Of a stretch of 64,000 nt of DNA, positions 42,608-51,720 are shown piece by piece. Positions within the stretch are counted from its first letter, which is position 1; each line of letters opens with the position of its first letter. Position numbers and translations under genes: made by a program. This stretch comes from Armatimonadota bacterium. GTDB lineage: Bacteria > Armatimonadota > UBA5829 > DTJY01. The notes below the pieces were generated by a model. It was given only the letters and a program-made list of their open reading frames with translations. It searched no databases and was not told the origin of the DNA. Location of the stretch: assembly GCA_023511795.1 (NCBI GenBank), contig JAIMAU010000001.1, positions 512,384 through 576,383 of the forward strand, in the 5' to 3' direction.

Positions 42608-43654
42608 ATGGTAAGAGTAGGTATAATTGGAGCATTAGGATACGGCGGCGGCGAGCTTGTACGAATTCTTACTAATCACCCACATGTCAAGCTAACATAT
42701 TTATGTTCAGAGCTTGAAAAGCCTATGCGCGTTTCAGATGTGTGTCCAGGATTTAGAGGCATCCTTGACGCAAATTGCGAGGTATATAATCCAACCACAG
42801 CAATCGAGCAATGTGACATACTTTTTATTGCTCAACATCCCGGGTGGGCAATGAAACATGCCAGGCGATTTCTTGATGCTGGCATCAAAGTTATTGATTT
42901 GAGCGCAGACTTCCGACTTCGCAACCCTGAAAATTATGAGCAGTGGTATAAAATTAAGCATGAATCACCCGAATTGATTCAGCAAGCGGTTTACGGGTTG
43001 CCAGAACTCCATCGAAGTCAAATTGCCCAGGCGAAATTGATTGCCAACCCTGGTTGCTTTCCAACGGGTGCAATCTTGGCTCTGATGCCTCTGCTAAAAG
43101 AGAAGCTTGTGGACGCAGATACAATCATTGTGGATTCGAAAACTGGTGCTTCAGGTGCAGGGCGCATGGCTCATAAACTCGACTTCCACTTTCCTGAGCT
43201 TAACGAGAGCATGAAGCCATATAATGTTGGTGTCCATAGACATACCCCTGAAATTGAACAGGAGCTTAGTTCGATTGTTGGATGCCAAGTAACTATATCA
43301 TTCACGCCCCACTTAGTGCCAATCACTAGAGGTATTCTTACAACCGCGTATGCTCGGCTTCTTGACACTAGTATGACAACAGAAAACCTCGTTGACATCT
43401 ACAGGCAACATTATGCAAATGATTACTTCGTTGTAGTCCTAAATGCGGGCGAATATCCAGCAACGAAAAACACATATGGTTCGAACTTTTGCCAGATTGG
43501 TTTAAAAGCCGACGAAAGGACAGGGCGTGTAGTTGTGATTTCTGCTATTGACAATCTAGTCAAAGGCATGGCAGGCGAAGCCGTGCAAAATATGAACCTG
43601 ATGTGTGGTTTTGACGAAAAGACTGCGCTTGATCGTCCGGCGATGTTTCCATGA
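42608..43654 (+). CDS. argC: N-acetyl-gamma-glutamyl-phosphate reductase
   Basis: Third step of arginine synthesis: NADPH-dependent reduction of N-acetylglutamyl phosphate to the semialdehyde. 348 residues. NADP-binding GALGYGGGELVRIL at the start; catalytic Cys in NPGCFPTGAIL (about residue 150); substrate-site His in VHRHTPEIEQEL. The stop overlaps the argJ start by 4 nt (ATGA). Confidence 0.97.
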   Translation: MVRVGIIGALGYGGGELVRILTNHPHVKLTYLCSELEKPMRVSDVCPGFRGILDANCEVYNPTTAIEQCDILFIAQHPGWAMKHARRFLDAGIKVIDLSADFRLRNPENYEQWYKIKHESPELIQQAVYGLPELHRSQIAQAKLIANPGCFPTGAILALMPLLKEKLVDADTIIVDSKTGASGAGRMAHKLDFHFPELNESMKPYNVGVHRHTPEIEQELSSIVGCQVTISFTPHLVPITRGILTTAYARLLDTSMTTENLVDIYRQHYANDYFVVVLNAGEYPATKNTYGSNFCQIGLKADERTGRVVVISAIDNLVKGMAGEAVQNMNLMCGFDEKTALDRPAMFP

Positions 43655-44850
43655 TAGAATATCCTAGTTCAATAACCAAGCCAAAGGGTTTCTTAGCAGC
43701 AGGAGTGCGCGCTGGAATCAAAGAAAAAGGCGAGGATTTGGCACTCATAGTTTCGGAACAACCTGCTTCGATAGCTGGTGTCTTTACAAAAAACATATTT
43801 AAAGCCGCTCCGGTTCAAGTATGCATTTCGCGAATTCCTAGGGCAACCGCTCGGGCAATTGTCGCAAATAGTGGCAATGCAAATGCATGTACTGGTAAGG
43901 TCGGAATAGAGGATGCCAGGCGTATGATTGCCGAGGTGGCATGCCGACTGGACGTGCCGGAGGAAGATGTGTTTGTTGCGTCCACTGGCGTCATTGGACG
44001 GCGTCTGCCAATCCAAAAAATAATAAATGGCATTGATTTGGCAGTCTCAAGTTTGAGCAAGAACTGCGGAGCGAATGTGGCTCGGGCGATTATGACCACC
44101 GATACTCGTCCAAAGGAAGCCGAAGTTGAGTTTGATATCGGTGGGGTGAGGGCGACAATAGGCGGCATTGCGAAAGGTGCAGGCATGATATGTCCAAATA
44201 TGGCAACAATGCTTGCATTCCTTACCACCGATGTTGCTATTACACCCACAATGCTTCAGATAGCATTATCTCGTTCAACTGAAATCTCGTTCAACTGCCT
44301 TACCATCGATGGCGACACAAGCACAAATGATAGCGTATTTATTCTTGCGAATGGAGCAGCTGGAAATTCAGTAATTAATGCCGAGAGTGAAGTTTTTCAA
44401 GTTTTTCAACAACACCTTGATGCTGTCACAATTCAACTTGCTCGCCAAATTGCAGCAGACGGCGAAGGCGCCACGAAGGCAGTCAGCGTAACGGTCAAAG
44501 GCGCGAAATCTTATAAGGACTGCCGGCAAATTGCTAAAACAATAGCTAACTCTCCGCTTGTTAAGACGGCAATGTTCGGTTGCGACCCAAATTGGGGCCG
44601 AGTTATAGCAGCAGCAGGAAGAGCAGGTGTTGAATTCGACCCCAATGTAGTCAGCTTGTATTTTGGCGATATCTTAATCATTGAAAACGGAGAGCCTGTA
44701 ATTTTTTCGCAGGCTGAAGCACGCAAATATCTGTCTGGAAAAGATGTATTGATAACTTTGAACGTAGGCAGTGAAAATTGGTCTGCTACTGTATGGACTT
44801 GCGATCTTTCGTACGATTACGTCAAAATCAATGCAGAATATCACACTTAA
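43651..44850 (+). CDS. argJ: Ornithine acetyltransferase / N-acetylglutamate synthase (ArgJ)
   Basis: Recycles the acetyl group from N-acetylornithine to glutamate and in the bifunctional form also uses acetyl-CoA. 399 residues. The self-cleavage site lies before Thr186 in the PNMATMLAF motif, giving alpha and beta chains. NSGNANACTG and GDTSTND motifs are intact. No argA or argE is seen in the window, consistent with a cyclic pathway. ATGA overlap with argC. Confidence 0.96.
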   Translation: MIEYPSSITKPKGFLAAGVRAGIKEKGEDLALIVSEQPASIAGVFTKNIFKAAPVQVCISRIPRATARAIVANSGNANACTGKVGIEDARRMIAEVACRLDVPEEDVFVASTGVIGRRLPIQKIINGIDLAVSSLSKNCGANVARAIMTTDTRPKEAEVEFDIGGVRATIGGIAKGAGMICPNMATMLAFLTTDVAITPTMLQIALSRSTEISFNCLTIDGDTSTNDSVFILANGAAGNSVINAESEVFQVFQQHLDAVTIQLARQIAADGEGATKAVSVTVKGAKSYKDCRQIAKTIANSPLVKTAMFGCDPNWGRVIAAAGRAGVEFDPNVVSLYFGDILIIENGEPVIFSQAEARKYLSGKDVLITLNVGSENWSATVWTCDLSYDYVKINAEYHT

Positions 44851-44917
44851 AATTCTACATGATTTTTGGTTATTGAAAGTGTGGTGAAACCGGGGTTTAA
44901 TGGTTATGGAGAAAAAA

Positions 44918-45775
44918 ATGAGCGCTAGCGCTGAACAAGCAGAAATTCTCGTCCAGGCTCTTCCATATATCAGGCAATACTATGGCAAGACCATCGTCGT
45001 TAAATATGGCGGCAATGCGATGGTGGACGAAAGGCTTAAACAAGGCGTGATGAAGGACATAGTCCTTATGCATTATGTAGGCATGCGTCCTGTACTTGTC
45101 CATGGTGGCGGTCCTGAGATTACCGAATTAATGGAGCGAATGGGCAAAAAGCCGAGCTTTATCAAGGGGCTTCGTGTTACCGATGCAGAGACGATGGAAA
45201 TCGTCGAGATGGTTCTTACTGGAAAAACAAACAAGAGCATTGTCTCACTTATCAATTCGCAGGGGGGCAAGGCTGTTGGCTTGAGCGGCAAGGATGGGAA
45301 TCTTATGGTAGCTGAAAAGGCTCAGATTGAAGATGCTGACCTCGGATACGTTGGCAAAATTGTAGAAATAAATACCGAGATCATTGAAACCCTAATTCAT
45401 GAGGGATATATACCAGTAGTATCCTCTATTGCGGTAGGTAGAGATTGGGAAACATATAATTTGAATGCAGACCACGCGGCTGGGGAGCTAGCCGGCGCGC
45501 TTGAGGCGGCAAAGCTAATCATTCTAACAGACGTAACAGGGGTTTACCGTGACTTCAGCGACAAAACCAGCCTTATTTCGGAGCTTTCGGCATCAGAAGC
45601 CAAGGAAATGATTCGGACAGGCAAGGTTGACAAAGGAATGATTCCAAAGCTGGAGGCATGCCTTATGGCGTTATCAGGCGGCGTCGAACGCGCACATATT
45701 ATTGATGGCACGCTACCCCATGCGCTCCTGATGGAGATATTTACTGACACTGGCATTGGCACTATGATTACCTAG
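44918..45775 (+). CDS. argB: Acetylglutamate kinase
   Basis: Phosphorylates N-acetylglutamate; the usual control point of the pathway. The ATG at 44918 is 7 bp after TATGGAG; an in-frame ATG at 44900 lacks a site. 285 residues. KYGGNAM, VHGGGPEI and a C-terminal IFTDTGIGTMI segment are present. The N-terminal helix (AEILVQALPYIRQYYGK) and that C-terminal signature match the arginine-inhibited hexameric class, so feedback inhibition is likely. Confidence 0.96.
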   Translation: MSASAEQAEILVQALPYIRQYYGKTIVVKYGGNAMVDERLKQGVMKDIVLMHYVGMRPVLVHGGGPEITELMERMGKKPSFIKGLRVTDAETMEIVEMVLTGKTNKSIVSLINSQGGKAVGLSGKDGNLMVAEKAQIEDADLGYVGKIVEINTEIIETLIHEGYIPVVSSIAVGRDWETYNLNADHAAGELAGALEAAKLIILTDVTGVYRDFSDKTSLISELSASEAKEMIRTGKVDKGMIPKLEACLMALSGGVERAHIIDGTLPHALLMEIFTDTGIGTMIT

Positions 45776-45991: not shown

Positions 45992-47200
45992 ATGGCGATG
46001 CTAGATATGGATACAAAGACTGCGATTGAAATGGATGCCAAGTATATGATGCGCTTTGTCGGGCGGTTGCCAGTTGCATTTGTACGTGGTGAAGGAATAA
46101 AAGTTTGGGATGCTGAAGGAAAAGAATACCTAGACTTTCTTGCAGGTATCGCAGTAAATGGTTTGGGCCATTGTCCACCAGCCGTTGTGTCGGCTATTAG
46201 GGAGCAAGCTGGAACGCTCATGCATGTGAGCAACCTATACTACATACCCCAACAAGCAGTTCTTGCAAAGCGGTTAGTTGAGCTCTCAGGCTTGGGTAAG
46301 GCGTTTTTTTGCAATAGCGGTGCGGAAGCGAATGAAGCAGCTATAAAGCTTGCCCGAAAGTGGGCGAAAGAGAACTGTGGTGAAGATAAATACGAGATCA
46401 TAACAACAGAGGGGTCTTTTCATGGACGAACTCTTGCTACCGTAACTGCAACAGGACAGCCGAAGTACCATCAGGGATTCGAACCATTGGTTCCTGGGTT
46501 CAAATACGTGCCATTTAATGACCTCACAGCGCTGAAGGCAGCAATTTCTGAGAAGACATGTGCGATAATGCTCGAGCCCATACAGGGCGAATCGGGCGTT
46601 TTTCCTGCTACCCTTGAGTATCTGCATGGCATAAGAAAACTTTGCGATGAGTTAGGATTGCTCTTGATACTAGATGAGATTCAAACTGGGCTAGGTAGAA
46701 CTGGAAAGTGGTTTGGTTTTCAGCATTATGGCATAATGCCAGATATCATGACGTTGGCAAAGACCCTGGGAGGTGGTTTCCCAATAGGTGCATGTCTAGC
46801 GTCTGATATCGTTGCCACCGGATTTCAGCCGGGTAATCATTCTTCAACTTTTGGTGGGAATCCATTGGCTTGTGCCGCTGCAATCGCTGCATTGCGCGAA
46901 ATTGATGAAGAAGGTTTGGTTCAAAACTCGGCGGAAGTAGGGGTTTATTTTAAGGACCGGTTGGAAGAACTTAAATCAAGACGGGATGATATCATCGAAA
47001 TACGAGGCGTTGGTCTAATGATTGGAATGACGCTAGCGCGCAAGGGTGCACCCAAAGTGGCAACTAAATGCCTAGAAAAAGGATTAATACTCAATTCGAT
47101 TGGCGAAAGCATTTTGAGATTTCTCCCACCTTTAATTGTCAAAAAGGAACATGTTGATACCGCTGTGGATATACTTAGCGAAACCCTTCAGGAGGTTTAA
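45992..47200 (+). CDS. argD: Acetylornithine aminotransferase
   Basis: PLP-dependent transfer of the amino group from glutamate to N-acetylglutamate semialdehyde. 402 residues. PLP lysine in TLAKTLGGG; phosphate- and cofactor-contact motifs NSGAEANEAAIKLAR, HGRTLATV and LDEIQTGLGRTG are intact. ATG 45992 follows AGGAAAGGG by 9 bp. First gene behind the attenuator-like leader; 39 bp before the Clp N-domain gene. Confidence 0.96.
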   Translation: MAMLDMDTKTAIEMDAKYMMRFVGRLPVAFVRGEGIKVWDAEGKEYLDFLAGIAVNGLGHCPPAVVSAIREQAGTLMHVSNLYYIPQQAVLAKRLVELSGLGKAFFCNSGAEANEAAIKLARKWAKENCGEDKYEIITTEGSFHGRTLATVTATGQPKYHQGFEPLVPGFKYVPFNDLTALKAAISEKTCAIMLEPIQGESGVFPATLEYLHGIRKLCDELGLLLILDEIQTGLGRTGKWFGFQHYGIMPDIMTLAKTLGGGFPIGACLASDIVATGFQPGNHSSTFGGNPLACAAAIAALREIDEEGLVQNSAEVGVYFKDRLEELKSRRDDIIEIRGVGLMIGMTLARKGAPKVATKCLEKGLILNSIGESILRFLPPLIVKKEHVDTAVDILSETLQEV

Positions 47201-47239
47201 TTTTATTAGACTTCCGCTCTGTTGAGAGGAGATACAAAA

Positions 47240-47707
47240 ATGTGGAAGCAACTTACCCAGAAAGCACAAAAAGCAGTTTTTCTGGCGCTCGAAGAAGCAG
47301 GAAAGCTTGGTTATAGCCATGTAGGTCCAGAACATTTACTTCTAGCGCTTGTCAGAGAAGAGGATTGCCTTGCCGCCAGGATTCTTGAGCGCATAGGTGT
47401 TGACCTTGGCACGGTGCGCAGCGAAATTATGAAGCGGCTGTCGAGAGGTTCGGAGACCTTGAGCGATGGCCTTGAGCTTACGGCTGAGGCAAAGCACGTA
47501 ATAGACCTAGCTTTTGATGAAAGCAGACAGGCAAAAGAGGATTGGATAGGAACTGAGCATTTACTAATTGGGCTTGCAGAAGAACCCCATAGTATTGCAG
47601 CTCAGTTTCTTGCCGAGCATGGTATTGATGCAGCACTAATTCGTAGGGAGCTAAGAAGTATGCAAGCAGGTGCACTGCCGTTCGGGCAGAACAGTGGAGG
47701 AAAGTAA
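47240..47707 (+). CDS. Free-standing double Clp N-terminal domain protein in the arg operon
   Basis: 155 residues from ATG 47240, 8 bp after GAGGAG. The whole protein is two Clp_N repeats like the N-terminal domain of ClpC/ClpA, with no AAA+ module. Repeat 1 (about 3-70) has VGPEHLLLAL with Glu31; repeat 2 (about 78-148) has IGTEHLLIGL with Glu106. In Bacillus ClpC the equivalent residues (Glu32 and Glu106, from memory) bind phosphorylated arginine of substrates. Free Clp_N proteins (ClpS-independent, MecA-unrelated) are known but their roles are mostly undefined. It sits between argD and the Clp_N-ArgF fusion, with 3 bp to the latter, so the pair is co-expressed. It may interact with the fusion, with ClpC, or bind a small arginine-like ligand; all three are inference. 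Confidence 0.9.
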   Translation: MWKQLTQKAQKAVFLALEEAGKLGYSHVGPEHLLLALVREEDCLAARILERIGVDLGTVRSEIMKRLSRGSETLSDGLELTAEAKHVIDLAFDESRQAKEDWIGTEHLLIGLAEEPHSIAAQFLAEHGIDAALIRRELRSMQAGALPFGQNSGGK

Positions 47708-47710
47708 CTA

Positions 47711-49126
47711 ATGTGGCAGAGATTCACGGAAAAGGCGCGATTGGCTATTTTCTATGCGCAGGAGGAGGCGGCGAAAAGAAAGAGCAGAATCGTTGGCACT
47801 GAGCATTTATTGCTTGGTTTATTGCATAAGCCAGACAACATTGCCAAACGCGTCTTTCAGCGCATTGGAGTAAACGAGGAAAGCCTGCGCAGGGAGATTG
47901 AGAAAATGGCGCCGGTTTCCGACACTGGCGATGTAAACCAAGATATGCAACTCTCAGCAAATGCTAAGCGTGCAATTGACTTGGCTTACCAGTCGGCTAG
48001 AGAGCTGAGAAGCAATTACGTTGGGACAGAGCACCTACTCCTCGGGTTGGTCAAGAACGACCGTGGAACCGTTGCTCCCCTTCTAGCGCAAATGGGTGTG
48101 ACTTTCGAGCGTGTCAAGCAAGAAATCTCAGCGATTCAAACGTCAGAGACACGCGTTGACGAAATCACGGCTCACGATTCGCATCTAAAAGTACCAGATA
48201 ACATGCGAGGCAAAGATTTAATCTCAATTGATGACCTTAGCCGCGAGGAAATAGAAACAATATTTGACCTCGCCCGACAACTTAAATCACGGAGTTTGAC
48301 AGAGCAATATGCCAATCCCATTCTGCCAGGCAAGACGCTTGCCATGATATTTGAGAAGCCGTCTCTTAGGACACGTGTAACATTCGAGGTTGGTATGTCT
48401 CAACTTGGCGGTAACGCTGTCTATCTTGCACCTGCCGACATCCGAATGGGCGAACGTGAGCAAGTCAGCGATGTTGCAAAGAATCTCGAACGCTGGGTAC
48501 ATGGTATAATGGCACGGACTTTTAAGCACAAAACCATAACCGAACTTGCAAAGTATGCAAATATCCCAATTATAAATGGTCTATCAGACCTAGAGCATCC
48601 TTGCCAAGCATTGGCCGATTTCTTGACAATCTTAGAGAAAAAGGGCGACCTTTCAAAGCTCAAGCTTGCCTACATTGGCGATGGATGCAACACTTGCCAC
48701 AGCCTTATGCTCCTCGCTGCAAAGGTTGGCACAGACATTGCGGTGGGCTGTCCGGAGGGTTATGAACCAAATACAGTGATTCTCAACAAAGCACTTCGAG
48801 CTGCGGAGCACTCGGAAGCTTCGATAAAAGTAACAAATGACCCATTTGAGGCCGTAGAAAATGCTGATGCAATCTATACGGATGTCTGGTGTAGTATGGG
48901 ATTGGAGGATGAACGAGAGAAACGACTGCCGGTGTTCCAACCTTATCAAGTAAATCAAAAGCTTGTTGAGGCAGCTCGGAACGATGTGATTGTTCTCCAC
49001 TGCCTCCCAGCGCACCGCGGCGAAGAAATCACTGACGAAGTAATCGACGGCCCGCACTCGGTTGTGTTCGATGAAGCGGAGAATCGTTTGCATGTGCAAA
49101 AAGCACTGTTGGCATTGCTATTGTAA
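47711..49126 (+). CDS. argF: Clp N-terminal domain fused to ornithine carbamoyltransferase
   Basis: 471 residues in one uninterrupted frame. Residues 1-145 are two Clp_N repeats with GTEH at Glu31 and Glu107, followed by a 20-residue linker. Residues 165-471 are a complete ornithine carbamoyltransferase, which makes citrulline from ornithine and carbamoyl phosphate: SLRTR (218-222) for carbamoyl phosphate, HPCQ (296-299), DVWCSMG for ornithine, and HCLPAHRG (from 430). An internal ATG at 48203 would give the enzyme alone but has no ribosome binding site, so the fusion is the expected product. Normal ArgF is about 305-335 residues; I know of no described enzyme with this layout. Neighbours are argD and the free Clp_N protein upstream, argG and argH downstream. 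A link to Clp proteolysis or to arginine sensing is inference. Confidence 0.93.
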   Translation: MWQRFTEKARLAIFYAQEEAAKRKSRIVGTEHLLLGLLHKPDNIAKRVFQRIGVNEESLRREIEKMAPVSDTGDVNQDMQLSANAKRAIDLAYQSARELRSNYVGTEHLLLGLVKNDRGTVAPLLAQMGVTFERVKQEISAIQTSETRVDEITAHDSHLKVPDNMRGKDLISIDDLSREEIETIFDLARQLKSRSLTEQYANPILPGKTLAMIFEKPSLRTRVTFEVGMSQLGGNAVYLAPADIRMGEREQVSDVAKNLERWVHGIMARTFKHKTITELAKYANIPIINGLSDLEHPCQALADFLTILEKKGDLSKLKLAYIGDGCNTCHSLMLLAAKVGTDIAVGCPEGYEPNTVILNKALRAAEHSEASIKVTNDPFEAVENADAIYTDVWCSMGLEDEREKRLPVFQPYQVNQKLVEAARNDVIVLHCLPAHRGEEITDEVIDGPHSVVFDEAENRLHVQKALLALLL

Positions 49127-49147: not shown

Positions 49148-50338
49148 ATGAAAACAGTAGTTCTTGCATATTCTGGTGGCCTGGATACCTCAGTGTGCAT
49201 ACCGATGATGAAAGAATTTTATGGTTTTGATAAGGTTGTAACTGTAACAGTGGACGTAGGCCAGCCACCTGATGACATTGCCGAAGCCGAGGAGAAGGCT
49301 CGTATCCTAGGAACAGAGCATTATACTATCGACGCTAAAGAAGAATTTGTGAAGGATTATGTATTCCATGCCATAAAAGCAAATGGCGACTACCAGGGCT
49401 ATCCATTGAGTACTGCAATTGCTCGGCCTTTAATTGCTGCCAAGAGCGTTGAGATAGCCCAACAGGTCGATGCTGACGCATTCGGCCATGGGTGTACCGG
49501 TAAAGGAAATGACCAATTTAGGTTCGAAATCGTTGTTCGAACGTTTGCACCCGAAAAGGAAGTCATAGCTCCAATGCGAGAGCGGAACCTCACGCGAAGC
49601 GAGGAAATCGAATATGCAAAAAGCCGAGGCGTACCTATTGCCCAGTCGGTTGAGAAGATATGGAGCATTGATGAAAATCTTTGGGGTCGCTCAATAGAAG
49701 GCGGCCGACTCGAAGAACCTGACTTTGTGCCTCCGGAGGAGATTTATAAGTGGACAAAAGGTCCTAACAAAAGTCCAAATACCCCGCTTGAGATTACAAT
49801 TGGCTTCGAGAACGGTGTGCCAGTCTCGCTGGATGGCAAAAGAATGGACGGAGTTTCCCTAATTCGCCAGCTGAATGAAATCGCAGGTGAGCACGGCGTT
49901 GGTAGAATAGATATAATGGAGGATAGAATGCTCGGCCTGAAAGTGCGAGAAAACTACGAGTGTCCAGCAGCCGTCACACTGCTAACTGCACACAAAGCGT
50001 TGGAAGCACTGGTTTGCACAAAAGAAGAGATAAAGTTCAAGTCGATGGTTGACCGTGAGTGGGGCCAACTTGCATATGAAGGTCTTTGGTTCCATCCTCT
50101 GAAGGATGATCTAGAGGCGTTTATTGATAAGATTCAAGAGCGGGTAACCGGGGACGTAAAAATGCAGTTATTTAAAGGTCAGGCAAAGGTCATTGGACGG
50201 AGTAGTAGATGGGCGCTATATTCTGAGGACTTAGCATCGTTCGACACAAAGACCTTTGTGCAAAGCGAGATGACGGGTGCAGTAAAAGTTCATGGCTTGC
50301 AATCCAAAATGTATTGGTGGTTGAAAAGGGGTCAGTGA
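49148..50338 (+). CDS. argG: Argininosuccinate synthase
   Basis: Joins citrulline and aspartate using ATP. 396 residues. ATP-pyrophosphatase P-loop [10 protein letters not shown] (residues 7-16), [14 protein letters not shown], and citrulline/aspartate-site segments are intact. ATG after GAAGGAGCGG, 21 bp after the fusion gene. Stop overlaps the argH start. Confidence 0.97.
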
Positions 50339-51720
50339 TGTCTAAGCTTTGGGGCGGAAGATTCAAGAAAGCAACTTCCCCAATTGTGGATGAGTTCAAT
50401 GCGTCGATAAGCTTCGACGCGAGGCTTTGGAGATATGACATCGAGCAGAGCATTGCCCATGCTTCTATGCTTGGCAAGTGTGGAATTATTCCGCTGGCAG
50501 AGTCGGAAAAGATTATACAAGGTCTTCGTGATTTAAAAAACGATATTGAGGCGGGAAAAGTTGAGTTCGACACGTCGGCAGAAGACATCCATATGAACAT
50601 CGAAAAGCTTCTTCACGAGCGAATAGGCGATGTGGCTGGGATGCTGCAGACCGCTCGAAGCCGCAATGACCAGGTCGCAACCGATGTTAGAATGTATGTA
50701 AAGGCGCAAATAAAGGAGATTGATAGCCTGATTCGAGAAGCCCAATCGGCTTTTATCAAAGTTGCAGAAAGCAATATCGATACAATAATGCCTGGATATA
50801 CACACCTTCAACATGCCCAGCCAGTTATGCTAGCTCATCACATTCTTGCATATGTGTGGATGCTCCAGCGTGATCGAGAACGCCTAGCAGATTGTTTCAA
50901 GCGGACAGATGTGCTTCCGCTGGGATCCGCGGCGCTTGCGGGAACCTCGTTCCCGATTGATAGGGAATACACGGCTAAAATGCTTGGATTTTCACGGATA
51001 AGTGAAAATAGTATGGATGCGGTAGCAGAGCGAGACTTTGCGGTAGAGTTCTTATGTGCAATCTCAATCCTAGCCATGCACATATCCAGATTTGCTGAAG
51101 AAGTCGTCATTTGGAATACAAGTGAATTCGGCTTTATTGAACTTGACGACTCAGTTGCGACAGGCAGCAGCCTAATGCCACAGAAAAAGAATCCAGATGT
51201 AGCTGAACTCATGCGTGCGAAGACAGGACGTGTCTATGGTGACCTTATGGCACTTCTTACTGTTCTCAAAGGTCTGCCTTTGACCTACAACAAGGACCTC
51301 CAAGAGGATAAAGAACGCTTGTTTGATGCTTCAGATACAATAGTTATTTGTCTGAAAGTCCTCATTGAGTTTGTTGGGCATTTGAAGTTCAATACCAAAA
51401 GGATGTCGGCTGGGCTTGAAGATGACTTTTCAACTGCAACTGACATAGCAGATTACCTTGTAACACGCGGTGTGCCATTTAGAACCGCCCATGAAATAAC
51501 CGGGAAGCTTGTAAGGTATTGCTTGGAACAGGGCAAGACCTTGGGTAACTTGACGCTTGAAGAAATGCGGCGATTCTCGGATAAGTTCGAGGACTCGAGC
51601 TTGACGTGGGATGCCTGGTCCTCGGTTGAAAAACGCAATATCCCCGGAGCAACAGCTCCATGCCGATTGAAGGAACAATTGGAGGCTGCAAAAAAGGCTC
51701 TCGCCGCCGATTTGTTCTAG
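50338..51720 (+). CDS. argH: Argininosuccinate lyase
   Basis: Last step of arginine synthesis, releasing fumarate. 460 residues. ATG 50338 overlaps the argG TGA by one base and gives the standard SKLWGGRFKK start. The superfamily signature GSSLMPQKKNPD, with the catalytic Ser, is present, as are the TARSRNDQVATDVR and GYTHLQHAQP motifs. Ends the operon, convergent with the minus-strand pair below. Confidence 0.97.
   Translation: MSKLWGGRFKKATSPIVDEFNASISFDARLWRYDIEQSIAHASMLGKCGIIPLAESEKIIQGLRDLKNDIEAGKVEFDTSAEDIHMNIEKLLHERIGDVAGMLQTARSRNDQVATDVRMYVKAQIKEIDSLIREAQSAFIKVAESNIDTIMPGYTHLQHAQPVMLAHHILAYVWMLQRDRERLADCFKRTDVLPLGSAALAGTSFPIDREYTAKMLGFSRISENSMDAVAERDFAVEFLCAISILAMHISRFAEEVVIWNTSEFGFIELDDSVATGSSLMPQKKNPDVAELMRAKTGRVYGDLMALLTVLKGLPLTYNKDLQEDKERLFDASDTIVICLKVLIEFVGHLKFNTKRMSAGLEDDFSTATDIADYLVTRGVPFRTAHEITGKLVRYCLEQGKTLGNLTLEEMRRFSDKFEDSSLTWDAWSSVEKRNIPGATAPCRLKEQLEAAKKALAADLF

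Follow-up and report, generated by a model that had tools for sequence, protein, structure and literature searches.

Two adjacent genes in the arginine biosynthesis operon of an Armatimonadota bacterium encode a double Clp_N domain of the ClpC type, one as a free protein and the other in fusion with ornithine carbamoyltransferase (OTC, ArgF), and Clp_N is repeatedly linked to arginine genes within this phylum. When two domains are found fused or side by side again and again in genomes, this strongly indicates a functional link; the two partners here are the domain by which a protease motor recognises its substrates and a central biosynthetic enzyme. Judged from their sequences, these genes look like an uncharacterised way to tie a metabolic enzyme to protein quality control, which is proposed as their candidate function. 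It is possible, with a chance that we place somewhat below even, that the encoded proteins are mimics of the ClpC N-terminal domain (NTD) that tether ArgF to the McsB/ClpC network.

The window, which is the whole stretch of 64,000 nucleotides that was analysed (G000:C1:512384-576383), comes from a genome of 3.09 Mb. The operon lies on its forward strand in the order argC-argJ-argB-argD-[free Clp_N]-[Clp_N::argF]-argG-argH, with the neighbours typed by NCBIfam. Its first gene, argC (42608-43654; TIGR01850, 445 bits), is followed by argJ (43651-44850; NF003802, TIGR00120), argB (44900-45775; TIGR00761, Pfam AA_kinase) and argD (45992-47200; TIGR00707, Pfam Aminotran_3), and the two Clp_N genes are followed by argG (49148-50338; NF010392, 634 bits) and argH (50338-51720; TIGR00838, 632 bits). 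The free Clp_N gene (47240-47707, with ATG at 47240 and TAA at 47705-47707), which argD precedes by 39 bp, encodes a protein of 155 amino acids with Clp_N repeats at 47285-47440 (G000:C1:559668-559823) and 47510-47659 (G000:C1:559893-560042). The fusion gene (47711-49126, with ATG at 47711) encodes a protein of 471 amino acids, in which a double Clp_N domain (47711-48145, repeats at 47756-47908 and 47984-48133) is connected by a linker of residues 146-164 (48146-48202) to an OTC domain (48203-49126). The Pfam Clp_N profile PF02861 is matched by the free protein at 99.4 bits (E 1.2e-28) and by the fusion at 110.4 bits (E 4.6e-32) against a cut-off of 20.7 bits, in two stretches per protein, and the fusion also matches OTCace_N and OTCace. 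By reading of the sequence, a Shine-Dalgarno-like GGAG is located 8-10 nt 5' of both starts, at 47228-47231 for the free gene and as part of GGAGG at 47696-47700, within the 3' end of the free gene, for the fusion. The open reading frames and the Pfam matches agree with the original prediction that the free gene consists of two Clp_N repeats only and lies between argD and argG, 3 bp from the fusion.

The OTC part of the fusion exceeds the TIGR00658 equivalog cut-off (413.8 versus 280.85 bits), contains the catalytic motifs SLRTR, HPCQ and HCLP intact, and matches ArgF structures (E 2e-105 to 1pvv). Thus, the fusion has a complete OTC domain, whereas ordinary ArgF has no Clp_N. It is also the sole OTC found in the window genome. 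The second carbamoyltransferase match shown for this genome is an aspartate carbamoyltransferase, behind which a gene was identified by eye as dihydroorotase-like. The GC content is uniform across the operon (0.46-0.50), so that recent import is not suggested. Promoter and terminator matches are at chance level. The sole RNA family matched in the window, far from the operon, is the ribosomal protein L10 leader (RF00557, 7697-7804, 45.6 bits with a gathering score of 44).

Both Clp_N domains of the window are of the ClpC N-terminal domain type, not of the ClpB type, by sequence, by tree and, for the free protein, by predicted fold. ClpC N-domains are the best Clp_N structures for both proteins in a PDB sequence search (E 1e-29 for the free protein; E 3e-26 for the fusion, with 5hbn), and both domains group with ClpC, away from ClpB, in the domain tree (split 100/100). 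The AF2 model of the free protein, taken as the best of five models of which the other four have a pLDDT of 47-55, consists of eight helices with a pLDDT of 86.5, and matches ClpC NTDs at a TM of up to 0.90 and the phosphoarginine complex 5hbn at a TM of 0.79. The double Clp_N fold and its length are common to the ClpC NTDs of Bacillus subtilis (5hbn, 2y1r) and Mycobacterium ClpC1 (6pbs), but the window proteins are without the AAA+ motor, one copy being standalone and the other fused to an enzyme. Residue R9 of the ClpC NTD is replaced by lysine in both window copies, while K85 is kept in both, although it is often gone from the free copies of relatives. Neither a MecA domain (PF05389) nor an arginine-kinase domain (PF00217) is found in either window protein by Pfam. 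The plant protein ClpT1 (4y0b) is a standalone double Clp-N protein like the free gene product, but its match is far weaker (E 1.7e-6 by sequence). ClpT associates with the ClpPR core. Mycobacterial ClpC2 (8ad9, 9p2p) is likewise a motor-less ClpC-NTD-like protein, with a weaker match to the free protein than that of the ClpC NTDs (E 3e-15). According to PMC10030653, the ClpC2 domain forms the C-terminal 160 residues behind a non-homologous region, whereas in the window the domain makes up the whole protein of 155 amino acids or is fused to OTC. The free protein therefore does not have the ClpC2 architecture.

ClpC2 also provides the model for one explanation of the window genes, according to which Clp_N, present in abundance, would intercept antibiotics or phage proteins directed against the ClpC NTD, and the arg operon would be no more than a site of steady expression. 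As described in PMC10030653, cyclomarin A is sequestered by ClpC2, which can also keep casein away from ClpC1, and a free Clp_N gene is located directly upstream of clpC in G033 (L183), G047 (L186), G031 (L193), G045 (L212) and G072 (L213). A decoy of this kind is nevertheless very improbable here, because it explains neither why the argD-argF site was chosen again and again across families nor why Clp_N is fused to an enzyme.

Both Clp_N units of the window are under strong purifying selection, and the linker is relaxed. When the window genome is compared with its congener G001 by NG86 counting, dN/dS is 0.042 in the free gene; within the fusion, it is 0.053 in Clp_N, 0.316 in the linker and 0.051 in the OTC domain. 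In 38 fused loci, one of them that of an OTC-like pseudoenzyme, linker length ranges from 16 to 175 amino acids, with a median of 24.5. In the AF2 model of the fusion, in which the confidence is low in the Clp_N part as well, the pLDDT is below 50 at residues 142-157. Because the dN/dS of Clp_N is low and the linker is variable in length and predicted with low confidence, the fusion amounts to a conserved domain held by a loose tether. The fused frame is far beyond chance, since 30 of 85 genomes, with the window counted, have it open and dN/dS between the two congeners is about 0.05 in each Clp_N region.

The Clp_N-OTC fusion is present in at least 37 of 291 Armatimonadota genomes, in 12 of 44 families. 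The number of 37 is a lower bound from the best matches of this search and seven further loci that were fetched, and it counts G108, G112 and G134, in which the frame of the fusion is interrupted or truncated at the end of a contig. In the first set of 101 genomes, 85 OTC loci were read (84 and that of the window), among them G026, whose OTC is cut by a contig end and which was left out of the 91-row OTC tree, and G043, which is partly judgeable; Clp_N is fused to OTC in 30 of them. In contrast to these numbers, no Clp_N open reading frame is present in 45 OTC loci of other phyla (fetched stretches of 628,819 bases). The link between Clp_N and arginine genes, as predicted originally, is thus real and recurrent within Armatimonadota. 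In open-licence PMC text, no paper was found that joins Clp_N with ornithine carbamoyltransferase, or Armatimonadetes arginine biosynthesis with Clp, and no such fusion appears in the titles and abstract starts of the matches listed for OTC with ClpC or McsB, or for Clp_N with fusion or Armatimonadetes.

The free Clp_N gene does not occur mainly away from arginine genes, because it directly follows argD in all five genomes of the window's family. It adjoins the fusion in only 6 of the 30 genomes (G000, G001, G003, G004, G046 and G084), and the other 24 fusions are without an adjacent free gene. Conversely, as far as the short Clp_N open reading frames of relatives were covered, an arg-linked free gene is present without the fusion in five genomes, between argD and argF in G028, G042, G055 and G088 and beside argD in G002. 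The free and fused domains of the window are 38% identical and are not sisters in the tree. Therefore, the place and the domain of the predicted arginine-linked Clp module hold, but a dedicated, obligate system of one free and one fused protein does not. In G002 (L195:4516-12001), argD and the free Clp_N gene are followed by genes for a pyrR-like phosphoribosyltransferase, a pyrB-like protein, a dihydroorotase-like protein, carA and carB (Pfam), so that arginine and pyrimidine genes are joined around carbamoyl phosphate.

Arg-linked Clp_N has been recruited more than once, because the AU test rejects a tree in which all 32 arg-linked domains form one clade (p 8.5e-7); it was run on 56 domains, 20 of 76 rows having been dropped as long-branched or extra. 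In family f6, free Clp_N genes are nested with ClpC of the family itself (100/99). For the 24 fused domains tested, a single clade is compatible with the AU test (p 0.07), and a test of a 19-row subset (class plus f8 fusions) gives p 0.25. The 91-row OTC tree requires 13 changes of the fusion state, of which starred branches force at least six. This patchy distribution and the possible single origin of the fused domains would suit a passenger or solubility tag with no specific function, inherited after a chance fusion. However, such a passenger would not be expected to show strong purifying selection on both Clp_N units while the linker is relaxed, or to be recruited more than once overall. 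It would also not be expected to persist in G037 (L203:4717-6168), where argD is followed by a protein of 484 amino acids, in which Clp_N is intact and SLRTR, HPCQ and HCLP are missing from the OTC-like part, and then by argG. The normal OTC of G037 is encoded on another contig and has no Clp_N. We therefore regard a functionless passenger as improbable.

The residues that bind phosphoarginine in ClpC are largely kept. In Staphylococcus aureus ClpC, E32 and E106 of the NTD mark two phosphoarginine sites, with T7 at one of them, according to PMC12583610. K85 anchors the NTD to ClpC. Both window proteins contain T7, E32 and E106, and all four repeats keep the glutamate that had been noted in their motifs, which are GPEH and GTEH in the free protein and GTEH twice in the fusion. 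In 30 fused domains, a set from which four additional N-terminal copies in G046, G029 and G056 were excluded, the ClpC residue is kept at 71% on average over 83 ClpC-invariant columns, and at 97% for E32, 93% for E106, 87% for T7, 80% for K85 and 47% for R9. The corresponding values in 13 free domains are 60.5% on average, 100% for E32, 85% for E106, 77% for T7, 46% for R9 and 38% for K85. By these values, the pocket residues are favoured, which falls short of proof that phosphoarginine is bound. Since E32 and E106 are likewise present in both Armatimonadota ClpB domains compared, these residues are not diagnostic of phosphoarginine binding, and the argument that was built on the conserved glutamate is weak.

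Clp_N could also serve as a metabolite sensor that binds phosphoarginine or arginine and alters ArgF activity by feedback. The ClpC NTD has two such pockets, and S. aureus ClpC is activated through it by free phosphoarginine as an allosteric effector, but not by arginine itself (PMC12583610). The usual arginine sensor is missing, because the ArgR C-terminal domain is found in none of 56 genomes searched, as compared with 8 of 14 control genomes. Its absence is not specific to fusion genomes, since it is equally missing from those without the fusion. In addition, a linker of such variable length without confident predicted structure fits poorly to rigid allosteric coupling, and free Clp_N has no enzyme in cis. 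A sensor of this kind is quite unlikely.

McsB and ClpC, the presence of which had been raised as a check, are both encoded in the window genome, where a class IV aminotransferase gene, a short McsA-like frame (identified by eye), McsB and ClpC form a row with McsB directly upstream of ClpC. This genome also contains one LMW phosphatase-family gene, and no MecA is found in it. McsB is present in 31 of 37 fusion genomes as compared with 22 of 54 non-fusion rows (Fisher 4e-5, raw counts, with G002 scored as McsB-negative). When the genomes are at least 95% complete, it is present in 24 of 24 with the fusion and 16 of 32 without it (p 1.5e-5); the latter were counted by hand in the 101-genome set, from which 23 of the 24 fusion genomes also come. 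By family, the numbers are 9 of 12 with the fusion and 11 of 32 without it (p 0.02). By independent pairs on the tree, a test that was also done without G002, significance is lost (median p 0.5 for 6 pairs). The link between the fusion and McsB is thus suggestive. McsB is not a strict requirement of the fusion, because G046 (assembly 88% complete) has the fusion and a full-length ClpC, and McsB is neither upstream of ClpC nor elsewhere. In the remaining five fusion genomes without McsB, completeness ranges from 73 to 92%. G002 is not a case of free Clp_N without ClpC, because a ClpC fragment, 88% identical, is located at the very start of contig C107; its McsB and the front of its ClpC are therefore probably missing owing to an assembly gap. 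No McsB match is present in G033 and G047, two of the genomes in which free Clp_N directly precedes clpC, and mcsB sits upstream of clpC in several other genomes.

The case of G046 also bears on the possibility that Clp_N is a scaffold that gathers the arginine enzymes ArgD, ArgF and ArgG, with the free protein as a linker and without involvement of ClpC or McsB. Such a scaffold would account for the position of the free gene, which stays beside argD throughout the window's family, even in G002 with argF about 10 kb away. It would also fit the frequent loss of K85 from free copies and the multiplication of Clp_N at the locus, where G029 and G056 have two double units and G046 has three together with one free copy. 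On the other hand, Clp_N is also fused to enzymes at loci in which no arg gene is recognised, and its recurrent derivation from the NTD of ClpC itself suggests that ClpC-like binding matters. A scaffold is rather unlikely for these reasons.

Tethering of ArgF to the McsB/ClpC network could be achieved as follows. Both products would be ClpC-NTD mimics, in which the recognition domain of the unfoldase is present without its motor, and the fused copy would be held by a flexible linker on the only OTC of the cell. The domain may bind the ligands of the ClpC NTD, such as segments that are unfolded or phosphorylated on arginine, McsB or a different adaptor, or the docking surfaces of ClpC, so that whatever binds the ClpC NTD could bind ArgF too. 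Oligomeric ArgF would then display several Clp_N copies and be connected to McsB/ClpC quality control, possibly with regulated turnover, protection or local recruitment of ArgF as the outcome. In this way the amount of ArgF, or arginine synthesis, may be affected. A known precedent, with a different layout, is ClpC2, a motor-less NTD-like protein that is able to compete for ClpC1 ligands (PMC10030653). Tethering is favoured by this precedent, the likeness to the ClpC NTD, the McsB and ClpC of the window genome itself, the spread over 12 of 44 families, the presence of McsB in 24 of 24 nearly complete fusion genomes, the conservation of E32, E106 and T7, the activation of ClpC by phosphoarginine, and G037. 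It is disfavoured by G046 without McsB, the null result of the pairs test, the 11 of 32 fusion-free families with McsB, the retention of R9 at 47% in fused domains and of K85 at 38% in free copies, the conservation of E32 and E106 in the two ClpB domains, and the absence of MecA.

Clp_N travels as a module onto metabolic enzymes. On the reverse strand of the respective loci, it is fused to a NadC-type quinolinate phosphoribosyltransferase in G043 (L204:3977-5389), to PTPS in G034 (L207:4307-5218) and to a RidA-type protein in G049 (L210:4556-5563), and the reference search recognised no arg gene in these three fetched loci. Since OTC, RidA and PTPS form oligomers of threefold symmetry, their fusion to Clp_N would give a multivalent display. 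In Armatimonadota, the ClpC recognition domain might serve to mark metabolic enzymes (ArgF and the NadC, PTPS and RidA types) as a portable regulatory tag, which in the arginine pathway would read arginine phosphorylation or free phosphoarginine and let McsB/ClpC stress signalling feed back on arginine synthesis, the enzyme part having decayed to a dedicated carrier in one lineage; this broad proposal is doubtful, and we give it a small chance. If the domain works as it does in ClpC, it would be a natural reader of phosphoarginine or quality control built into metabolism, where ArgR is not found. The proteins are small and directly testable, and they form a phylogenetic series in which the domain is fused, free, multiplied or placed on an OTC homologue without catalytic motifs.

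Other arrangements were observed among the relatives. The same neighbours are joined in an alternative fusion, argD-argF without Clp_N, in a single frame of 704-748 amino acids in G038 (L126), G074 (L152), G092 (L165) and G098 (L170). In G052 (L137:11611-13140), a protein of 509 amino acids with three Clp_N stretches is encoded about 1.8 kb downstream of argH, and in G055 (L209:5055-6194, reverse strand) GGDEF, ribbon-helix-helix and Clp_N are combined in one protein. The fusions of family f25, G084 (L160:7001-8875) and G111 (L216:4934-6844), contain an extra insert between Clp_N and OTC, which in G111 matches T2SSE (secretion ATPase) in Pfam and in G084 looks similar by reading.
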